A model generated the notes under the pieces. The model saw only the letters and a program-made list of their open reading frames with translations. It was not told the DNA's origin and did not search any database. 64,000 bases of DNA, from positions 1,545,205 to 1,609,204 of the forward strand of contig CP098402.1 of assembly GCA_025916675.1 (NCBI GenBank), written 5' to 3'. The stretch is from Phycisphaera sp. Its GTDB lineage: Bacteria > Planctomycetota > Phycisphaerae > Phycisphaerales > UBA1924. The position numbers and the translations under genes were made by a program. Within the stretch, counting starts at the first letter, position 1. Each line of letters starts with the position of its first letter. Below, piece after piece: positions 23,074 to 30,333 of the stretch.

Positions 23074-24183
23074 CTACACGTTGAACAGGAAGTGGCACAC
23101 ATCCCCATCCTGCATCGCGTAGTCCTTGCCCTCCACGCGCATCTTGCCGGCTTCCTTGATGGCCTTCTCGCTGCCGTACTGATCGAGCACATCAACGCCG
23201 TAGATGTTGGCCCGGATGAACCCGCGCTCGAAGTCGGTGTGGATCACGCCGGCCGCCTGCGGCGCGGTCGCGCCCTGGCGGACGGTCCAGGCCCGGATCT
23301 CCTTCTCGCCCGCGGTATAGAAGCTCTGGAGGCCCAATAGCCGGTAGGCCTCGCGCGCCAGCTTGCCCAGCGCGGGCTCGTCCATGCCATAGTCGGCCAG
23401 CATCTCGGCCTTGTCCTCGGGCTCGAGCTCGGCCAGCTCACTTTCGATCTTTGCGCACACCGGCACGAAGGCGTTGCCCTCGCCCTCGGCGTGGGCTTTC
23501 ACTTTCTGGGCCAGCTCGCCCTTGCCGGCGGCGTCGCTCTCGTCGACGTTGGCGATGTACAGAATCGGCTTGGCCGTGATGAGCCCAAGACCGCGCCACG
23601 CCTTGCGCTGCTCGGCATCGATGATGGAGTCGGCGATCACGCGAGCGGGCTTGCCCTCGTCGAGCACGGGCTTGATCTTTTGGAGTACGGCGTACCGGGC
23701 GATAGCCTCGGGCTCGCGGCTCTTGGCGGCGCGCTCTGCCTTGGGCAGGGCGCTCTCGACGGCCTGCAGATCGGCCAGCAGCAGCTCGTTGTTGATCGTC
23801 GAAATGTCGCGCATCGGGTCGACCGAGCCGTCGACGTGCAGAATCTCCTCGCCGCCCGGCGCCTCCTCGAAGCAGCGGACCACCTGGGCGATGGCGTCGA
23901 CCTCGCGGATGTTGCTCAGGAAGGCGTTGCCCTTGCCCGCGCCCTCGCTGGCACCACGGACCAGGCCGGCGATATCCACCAGCCGCATGGCCGCGGGGAT
24001 GACCTTCTGCGTCTCGATGTGCTTGTGGATGCGCTCGAGGTTCGGATCGGGGATCGGCACGATGCCCACGTTGGGCTCGATGGTGGCAAAGGGGTAGTTG
24101 GCCGCCAACGCGCCGGCGTTGGTTAGGGCGTTGAAGAGTGTGGACTTGCCAACATTGGGCAGCCCGACGATGCCTGCGTCCAT
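23074..24183 (-). CDS. ychF: Ribosome-binding ATPase YchF (OBG-type P-loop protein)
   Basis: A 369-residue universally conserved P-loop NTPase that binds the ribosome and hydrolyses ATP. The P-loop GLPNVGKST is at residues 6-14, followed by [11 protein letters not shown] (switch I) and [20 protein letters not shown] (G3/switch II). A helical insert precedes the C-terminal TGS-like domain, which ends with the conserved [18 protein letters not shown]. Length is normal. The start at 24183 ([10 protein letters not shown]) is the standard one for the family. It is divergent from the intron-containing tRNA gene 173 bp away. Confidence 0.95.
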
Positions 24184-24335
24184 GGGTTCGATTCCGATTG
24201 CTTGGGGCCTGCGATGCGGGAAAGGGGCAAAGGTATGCACGCCCGCGTCCGGCTCGCGGTTATCTACCCGCCCCACATGCCCGATTGCTGGCCATAGCCC
24301 GAGTTTGGTGGTCTACTTGTCAACGAGGCCCGGGG

Positions 24336-24341
24336 TACACT
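24336..24341 (+). promoter_or_regulatory. Candidate -10 box upstream of tRNA-Arg
   Basis: TACACT lies 15 bp before the mature tRNA 5' end; the same hexamer is the -10 of the tRNA-Ile promoter in this window. The best upstream element, TTGTCA at 24317-24322, is only 13 bp away, so the -35 is uncertain. Confidence 0.35.
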
Positions 24342-24356
24342 GTCGCCTGAACGCGA

Positions 24357-24725
24357 GCGCTCGTAGCTCAGCAGGACAGAGCAACGGTTTCCTTCGTCAA
24401 AGAGGGGCCCGGCCCGGAAACGGGCCGAGGCGAACCGGGTGAACTCGGGGAAACCCTAGTCGCTCCCGTTGGGCGATGGGCAATCCCGAGCCGAGCCGTC
24501 GGCGGGGTCTGGAGCCAAATCCAGAGCCGGCGGAAGGTGTAGAGACCAGCGGGTGAGCCGCCCCGGCAATACCCCCGCACCGAAGGTGGTTGACGCCACC
24601 GGAGGAAGCGCCCGGCACCCTACCCAGACGCGCATGTCTGGCGGGTGAAGAGATGGTCCGGTCCGTGGTGAAAGCCGCGGGTGTGCCGAAACCGTAGGTC
24701 GGAGGTTCGAGTCCTCCCGGGCGCG
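24357..24725 (+). tRNA. tRNA-Arg(CCU), interrupted by a group I intron
   Basis: Exons 24357-24393 and 24689-24725 join into a 74-nt tRNA. The acceptor stem is GCGCTCG/CGGGCGC with discriminator G and no encoded CCA. The D arm is GCTC-AGCAGGACA-GAGC. The anticodon stem is ACGGT/ACCGT, the loop TTCCTAA with anticodon CCT (24391-24393), the variable loop AGGTC, and the T arm GGAGG-TTCGAGT-CCTCC. Every stem pairs only after the 295 nt between U36 and A37 are removed. The product would decode AGG. If no other CCU-tRNA exists, cell growth would depend on splicing. Confidence in the tRNA identity is high. Confidence 0.95.
24394..24688 (+). ncRNA. Group I self-splicing intron (IC3-like) in tRNA-Arg(CCU)
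   Basis: A 295-nt intron between anticodon positions 36 and 37. P1 pairs exon UCCU plus intron UC (24390-24395) with GAGGGG (24402-24407), giving the obligatory U-G wobble exactly at the 5' splice site; the last intron base is G (24688). P2 is CGGCCCG-GAAA-CGGGCCG (24410-24427). P4 is CTCGGG/CCCGAG (24444-24449/24485-24490). P7 is GACCA/TGGTC (24544-24548/24654-24658). P9 is CCGTGGT-GAAA-GCCGCGG (24663-24680). The core GGTGTAGAGACCAG (24536-24549) resembles the Azoarcus tRNA-Ile intron, with covarying P7. Extra hairpins are at 24508-24525, 24585-24600 and 24624-24641. There is no endonuclease gene inside. Confidence 0.95.
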
Positions 24726-30260: not shown

Positions 30261-30333
30261 TGGGCCTGACAGGACTTGAACCTGTGACCTCACCGTTATC
30301 AGCGGTGCGCTCTACCGACTGAGCTACAAGCCC
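30261..30333 (-). tRNA. tRNA-Ile(GAU)
   Basis: On the minus strand: acceptor GGGCTTG/CAGGCCC with discriminator A, D arm GCTC...GAGC, anticodon stem CACCG/CGGTG with loop CTGATAA (anticodon GAT), and T arm ACAGG-TTCAAGT-CCTGT. The gene is 73 nt with no encoded CCA and no intron. It stands alone rather than in an rRNA operon. Confidence 0.97.

Follow-up and report, generated by a model that had tools for sequence, protein, structure and literature searches.

A 295-nt segment in the anticodon loop of the single tRNA-Arg(CCU) gene of a Phycisphaera genome is almost certainly an autocatalytic group I intron. The gene lies on the + strand at 24357-24725 of the window (the whole 64,000-nt stretch of contig CP098402.1 that was analysed) and is split after U36. 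Based on established group I chemistry, we infer that the intron splices in the cell, and by analogy this planctomycete intron is predicted to work like other small group I tRNA introns. With it, bacterial tRNA introns gain a planctomycete case that is spread over a whole family, with clear presence and absence data at one site. It also shows how such genes escape annotation, given that the Rfam group I model (RF00028) scores the intron under its cut-off and ARAGORN misnames the tRNA. A hairpin motif shared with other introns, P7.1, offers a way to trace how one kind of ribozyme reached several tRNAs, phyla and phages, and opens the role of the hairpin to testing.

Identification of the intron and its boundaries

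When the insert between U36 and A37 is removed, as the initial annotation had proposed, the joined exons form a complete cloverleaf with anticodon CCU that ARAGORN calls tRNA-Arg(cct), 74 nt. The tRNA fold alone is insufficient to set the boundary, because all joint shifts of the two cuts from -6 to +6 still gave a tRNA-Arg, with ccg from -6 to -1 and cct from 0 to +6. The boundary is set by the U/G rule and by the TTCCTAA anticodon loop of uninterrupted relatives. In all 22 full homologues described below, CCU stands directly 5' of the intron, and the terminal G, another feature read from the window sequence at the outset, is followed by AA. The features of the gene and intron are listed in Table 1. 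Upstream, at 24300-24356, TCTACTT and GGTACACT, or close variants of them, recur before the gene in genus-mates; this recurring stretch may be a promoter.

Table 1. Features of the interrupted tRNA-Arg(CCU) gene, its intron and the neighbouring gene; positions are those of the window, and paired percentages are alignment cells.
Feature	Position	Strand	Remarks
ychF	23074-24276	-	Pfam YchF-GTPase_C 1.4e-37; longest frame, true start may lie inside
5' exon, tRNA-Arg(CCU)	24357-24393	+	Acceptor strand, D arm, anticodon stem 5' strand, loop to U36
P1	24390-24407	+	Exon UCCU and intron UC (24390-24395) with GAGGGG (24402-24407); U36.G at the splice site
Group I intron, 295 nt	24394-24688	+	RF00028 match, homologues, covariation
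P2, GAAA loop 24417-24420	24410-24427	+	98.1% paired; two-sided changes in 6/7 pairs
P3 5' strand	24435-24441	+	Partner 24609-24615; 99.4% paired, hardly varies
P4 enclosing P5	24444-24490	+	P4 (24444-24449 with 24485-24490) 99.2% and P5 (24454-24480) 84.1% paired
P6 and extension	24491-24537	+	P6 100%, next stem 97.7%, tip 67.0 and 44.4% paired
P7 5' strand, GACCA	24544-24548	+	Partner TGGTC, 24654-24658; 99.1% paired, hardly varies
P7.1 hairpin with inner 3-bp stem	24549-24578	+	Outer stem 100%, inner stem 97.1% paired (alignment A2)
Variable second hairpin before P3	24585-24600	+	Weak, 50.0 and 81.3% paired; absent in L063
P3 3' strand	24609-24615	+	Pairs with 24435-24441
P8	24616-24647	+	Outer stem 99.1%, inner stem 64.2% paired
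P7 3' strand, TGGTC	24654-24658	+	Pairs with 24544-24548
P9 hairpin, GAAA loop	24663-24680	+	Outer half 95.5%, inner half 74.2% paired
Intron terminal G	24688	+	G in 22/22 homologues
3' exon, tRNA-Arg(CCU)	24689-24725	+	A37 to discriminator G73; CCA not encoded

The RF00028 search that the initial annotation had called for, run on the 701 bases around the intron, gave a match at 24381-24680 over the full model length (E 4.6e-6), yet its 31.3 bits are about 19 under the gathering score of 50. Across the 3.6-Mb single-contig host genome it was the sole match at E <= 0.001 (E 5.6e-6). Because the score is under the cut-off, the intron is absent from a default Rfam scan of the window, which reported only a tRNA-Ile at 30261-30333. 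RF00028 had matches in 10 of 294 genomes of the phylum; under stricter filters, it recovered two of the six intron-bearing family genomes in this draw. A passage in PMC6125680 judges a single Rfam model unlikely to cover the diversity of group I introns. ARAGORN overlooks the interrupted gene when run without introns; with introns allowed, it misplaces the intron and calls the tRNA Gly(gcc), and it was right for only 2 of 15 named tRNA-Arg(CCU) records.

The structural tests of group I identity made here found the U.G pair, the terminal G, a P3/P4/P6/P7/P8 core and the P3/P7 pseudoknot, and the stretch folds better than 100/100 dinucleotide shuffles (z -2.97). No Pfam match was found in the reading frames overlapping the intron, which, judged by its sequence, contains no recognisable endonuclease gene. 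The RF00028 match, though under the cut-off, and the covariation in 22 homologues uphold the reading of the window as a tRNA-Arg(CCU) gene with a group I intron in its anticodon loop.

Intron structure and subgroup

A P1-P9 structure was written from the window sequence and applied to an alignment of the 22 full homologues from the family (A1). Standard pairs occupy 89.7% of 1847 cells, compared with 79.7% in shuffles and 34.7-47.7% when the structure is slid by 1-3 columns. Two-sided changes occur in 45 of 87 pairs, a number reached by 0/500 shuffles. In the outer stems of P3, P4, P6, P7 and P8, 97-100% of cells are paired; P3, P4 and P7 give little covariation of their own because they hardly vary. 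The hairpins P2 and P9 and the helices P4 and P7 had all been recognised in the initial annotation, and the paired fractions in Table 1 agree with it. The loop of P2 is a GNRA loop in 22/22 rows, as read by eye. P5, with two-sided changes in 7 of 10 pairs, is a single hairpin with no P5abc domain. By analogy, P7 would be the guanosine-binding helix. In the 30 bases 3' of P7 there is one hairpin only, and neither P9.1 nor P9.2.

The U-G wobble at the 5' splice site, also proposed from the window alone, is kept as U36.G in 23/23 introns (the 22 and that of G504, a genome of another family of the order), and the next two pairs vary yet stay paired. Three rows are off by one base in the P1 of A1, and U36.G was therefore counted by script.

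P7 and P3 are separated by 60 bases in the window intron, the first 30 of which form the P7.1 hairpin, an insertion relative to RF00028. In an alignment of the P7-P8 region of 23 sequences (A2), two-sided changes occur in one pair of the outer stem of P7.1 and two pairs of the inner stem, and the unpaired strands UGAG and RAUA are kept, as are the stems.

Alpha-proteobacteria such as Agrobacterium have tRNA-Arg(CCU) introns of subgroup IC3, to which the tRNA-Ile(CAU) intron of Azoarcus also belongs. The IC3 plan, as in Azoarcus, is not known to include a hairpin between the P7 5' strand and the P3 3' strand. The intron described here shares with the Agrobacterium and Azoarcus introns its small size, the lack of an endonuclease, the anticodon-loop position, GNRA loops on P2 and P9 and the absence of P5abc, and with the Agrobacterium intron the same tRNA. 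It differs from them in the P7.1 between P7 and P3, the planctomycete host and the extended P5 and P6. The core looks IC3-like, and the missing P5abc agrees with the initial leaning towards IC3, but the conserved P7.1 is extra to that plan; we therefore did not file the intron as IC3.

Published descriptions of the subgroups bear on this choice. IC3 is given as lacking P5(a-d) in a passage of PMC11835236, and a section of PMC3984707, in which Azoarcus and IC3 are named, distinguishes group I classes by features such as P7.1 and P7.2. Subgroup IA2 has P7.1, P7.2, P9.1 and P9.2 according to a passage in PMC4227781. Our intron may resemble IA2 in having hairpins between P7 and P3 (P7.1 is conserved; the second is variable and absent in one homologue), but unlike IA2 it has one hairpin after P7 and lacks P9.1 and P9.2.

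Presence and absence in the family, and decoding of AGG

A blastn search of 150 family genomes with the tRNA and intron as query gave matches in at least 101, and the match covers the intron in at least 23 (L042-L064). It is full in 22; L064 begins at a contig end and is hence a partial homologue. With an exact pattern for the CCU anticodon arm in its uninterrupted form, 106 of the 150 genomes gave a match, and a reversed control pattern had zero matches in the rows shown. By this pattern the uninterrupted tRNA is absent from 23/23 intron-bearing genomes, and none of the 150 has both. The remaining 21 have neither; many of these genomes are incomplete, and the pattern would miss a CCU tRNA of divergent sequence. 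A looser tally (up to three mismatches; 216 of 251 genomes) was dropped, as it also caught other tRNAs such as the host tRNA-Thr(tgt).

Within the genus of the window (g1), the intron is present in 7/7 sampled genomes. It occurs in one of three genomes in each of the genera g216 and g258, and the other four are uninterrupted. In 1.5-kb flanks, ychF is beside the gene in the seven g1 genomes and L053, and also in the uninterrupted L230, L243, L244 and L259, so that the interrupted and uninterrupted states share one neighbour.

The host genome has 46 other tRNAs above the Rfam cut-off, plus two weak matches (20.7 and 19.5 bits) that gave no tRNA in ARAGORN. None of the 46 has a CCU anticodon by ARAGORN, and the arginine types among them are acg, ccg and tct. 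An intact second tRNA-Arg(CCU), which the initial annotation had named as evidence against its reading, was not found in this 99.97% complete, single-contig genome. An extra ARAGORN call in L023, Gly(gcc) with a 289-nt intron, was taken as spurious. The lowest-scoring of the 46, at 46.8 bits, is a tRNA-Pro to which ARAGORN assigns the anticodon AGG (L087; G000:C1:3235344-3235418, - strand).

Given these counts, the host can probably obtain tRNA-Arg(CCU) only if the ribozyme excises itself. In the six window genes with Pfam support, 4 of 148 arginine codons are AGG. A tRNA-Arg(UCU) could read AGG by wobble. With such a tRNA present, AGG decoding probably depends on splicing only in part, and the initial statement that AGG decoding depends on splicing was too strong.

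Predicted splicing and alternative explanations

We expect splicing to proceed as in other group I introns, with or without the aid of a protein. In the folded pre-tRNA, the UCCU at the end of the 5' exon would pair with the GGGG guide of the intron to form P1, with U36.G at the junction. A guanosine bound in P7 would cut after U36, and the freed U36 would then attack behind the terminal G and join A37, giving a normal tRNA-Arg(CCU).

If instead the tRNA gene had decayed to a silent state and its intron were dead, tRNA-Arg(UCU) alone would read AGG. The presence of that tRNA and the rarity of AGG would allow this, but by reading, the window and 22/22 full homologues have exons that make up an intact tRNA, the intron pairs are maintained by two-sided changes, and a second, uninterrupted CCU gene occurs in 0/23 intron-bearing genomes. 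We regard decay as highly improbable. A protein-spliced intron as in archaea or eukaryotes, or some other insertion in a tRNA gene, has hardly any probability at all. Protein-spliced introns likewise lie in the anticodon loop adjacent to the anticodon, but the full P1-P9 set, the P3/P7 pseudoknot, the U.G at the 5' site and the terminal G speak against it; to our knowledge, the relevant splicing endonuclease is not expected in bacteria, which we also count against it.

An autocatalytic intron could in addition be a switch, with splicing that responds to guanosine nucleotides or stress and a P7.1 that senses or binds a protein. The intron lies in the only CCU gene of the genome, and P7.1 keeps unpaired strands as well as stems. 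The rarity of AGG and the presence of tRNA-Arg(UCU) count against such a switch, and the same P7.1 motif is found in tRNA-Phe and phage-contig introns, which speaks for a structural role. We consider a switch very unlikely, and an autocatalytic group I intron remains by far the preferred reading.

Probable movement between genomes

Intron and YchF distances correlate, with r 0.71 for 22 genomes (p 0.0001), r 0.52 for 16 genomes with one from g1 (p 0.003) and r 0.23 for 14 family genomes (p 0.04); with one genome per genus the relation is weak (13 genomes, r 0.20, p 0.08). Three genomes of three genera (G308, G366 and G341) have the intron in a different tRNA backbone, and the exons of the three are identical. 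This suggests some lateral transfer between genera, in which the tRNA may or may not have moved along with the intron. Between G366 and G341, the intron distance is 0.105 and the YchF distance 0.401, the latter a soft value because the YchF of G366 is divergent and has one in-frame stop. For G308 and G341, the distances are alike (0.225 intron, 0.215 YchF). No shared blastn match was found among the flanks of these three genomes, and one 28-base match links L059 to the g1 flanks.

The intron is also located in tRNA-Arg(CCU) in G504 and in G091, which belongs to a distant family. The initial annotation had offered transfer and ancient shared insertion as alternatives. Given its presence throughout the sampled g1 genomes and the lateral signs between genera, both seem to hold in part.

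A wider set of introns with P7.1

On sequence evidence, P7.1 is what the Phycisphaerales intron has in common with many other group I introns of tRNAs and phages. A model of the P6-P7-P7.1-P8 region (R1) matched 24 of 251 genomes of the order, namely 22 of the family, G504 and G503. The G503 match (L113) is weak (E 4.1e-4) and was taken as chance, as no P7.1 motif and no tRNA could be seen by eye. In the phylum, R1 matched 10 of 392 genomes: seven of the family, G091, G658, with an intron in tRNA(CAU), and G188, with an intron that by eye lies in tRNA-Asn(GUU).

A sequence pattern for P7 and P7.1 found 71 named genome records and 12 viral contigs. Variants were missed, G334 and G091 among them, because the pattern was derived from the Phycisphaerales family. 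By reading, 30 of the 71 record titles name Patescibacteria groups; the other hosts include Phycisphaerales, Isosphaeraceae, other Planctomycetales, Kuenenia, Myxococcales, Deltaproteobacteria and Methylomirabilota. The introns occupy five types of tRNA and three sites of the anticodon loop: 34 in tRNA-Phe(GAA) and 4 in tRNA-Leu(UAA) between 33 and 34, 15 in tRNA(CAU) (14 by a first typing) and 15 in tRNA-Arg(CCU) between 36 and 37, and one in tRNA-Asn(GUU) between 35 and 36, with two untyped. For 4 of the 15 tRNA-Arg(CCU) records (L136, L170, L173 and L175), a second typing put another register first, and the first typing was kept. The free base R in the 5' strand of P7.1 covaries with its partner. 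Of 72 distinct sequences, two lack a recognised partner strand; the other 70 have 50 G-C, 13 A-T, 7 G-T and no A-C (Fisher p 1.6e-9, relatedness ignored).

The 12 viral contigs (L188-L199) carry introns with the P7.1 motif. In the one contig tested, L189, the frame 3' of the intron matches a major head protein (PHROG 267, E 2.3e-20), with only a sub-cut-off capsid match in Pfam, and a frame inside the intron resembles an HNH endonuclease (PHROG 5046, E 1.9e-13), with no match in Pfam. By eye, the downstream frame is similar in the other viral contigs. With the Phycisphaerales intron itself as query, plasmid and phage records gave no match.

A core tree of 91 sequences and 158 columns places the tRNA-Arg(CCU) introns in one clade of 22 (SH-like 0.999). 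It omits L142, for lack of a recognised end; G334 and G091, which the pattern missed; L186; and the 15 named tRNA-Arg records, which are other copies of the same introns. Two of three introns without P7.1 are placed among the tRNA-Phe introns (0.989 with three of these), a position at odds with P7.1 as a clean marker of a single lineage. The tree is weak and its alignment short, and we do not lean on it.

We tentatively suggest, with slightly less belief than doubt, that P7.1 (GCRGG, UGAG, mostly CCCAAC and RAUAA, CCYGC) marks an unnamed lineage of introns. Its members would lie at three positions of five or more types of tRNA, in Patescibacteria, Planctomycetota, Myxococcales-like and other bacteria, as well as in phage genes beside a head protein. 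The Phycisphaerales form would be a GC-rich branch with an inner P7.1 stem, located in the one CCU tRNA that its hosts were found to have. If such a lineage exists, the phage endonuclease frame beside the head protein may be a vehicle of its spread.

Related introns have been described elsewhere. A passage in PMC8172020 reports that some tRNAs with group I introns, which are hard to detect, occur in genomes including those of CPR. The introns found here in Patescibacteria tRNAs have the P7 and P7.1 motif in common with the Phycisphaerales form; they differ in being shorter and mostly in tRNA-Phe(GAA), with splicing between 33 and 34, and most are without an inner P7.1 stem of the Phycisphaerales kind. 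The tRNA(CAU) introns of Planctomycetales and Kuenenia share the P7.1 motif and the splice position between 36 and 37, but the tRNA is another one, P7 is GACTA and there is one more base before UGAG. A passage in PMC11915505 describes tmRNA group I introns across 21 phyla, some with endonucleases in the P7.1 region. These resemble our case as group I introns in a tRNA-like RNA with the U/G boundary rule and a P7.1 region, but they sit in the T-loop rather than the anticodon loop. CPR rRNA group I introns are the subject of PMC11270868, the main text of which does not contain the word tRNA. By title or the start of the abstract, none of the open-licence matches listed concerned a planctomycete tRNA intron, which is no proof of novelty.

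Other group I introns were observed in the course of this work. In other Planctomycetota, tRNA-Arg(UCU) is split after U36 by group I introns without P7.1 (L032 and L033, by reading), and ARAGORN names the tRNA of L033 Pyl. Group I introns lie between U35 and U36 of tRNA-Asn(GUU) in L035/L116 (G188) and L168, also by reading, and L035 has a different hairpin in the place of P7.1. The group I intron of L036 adjoins a tmRNA match that is weak (18.5 bits) and does not reach the cut-off, and those of L034, L038, L039 and L041 lie within Planctomycetota 23S rRNA genes.
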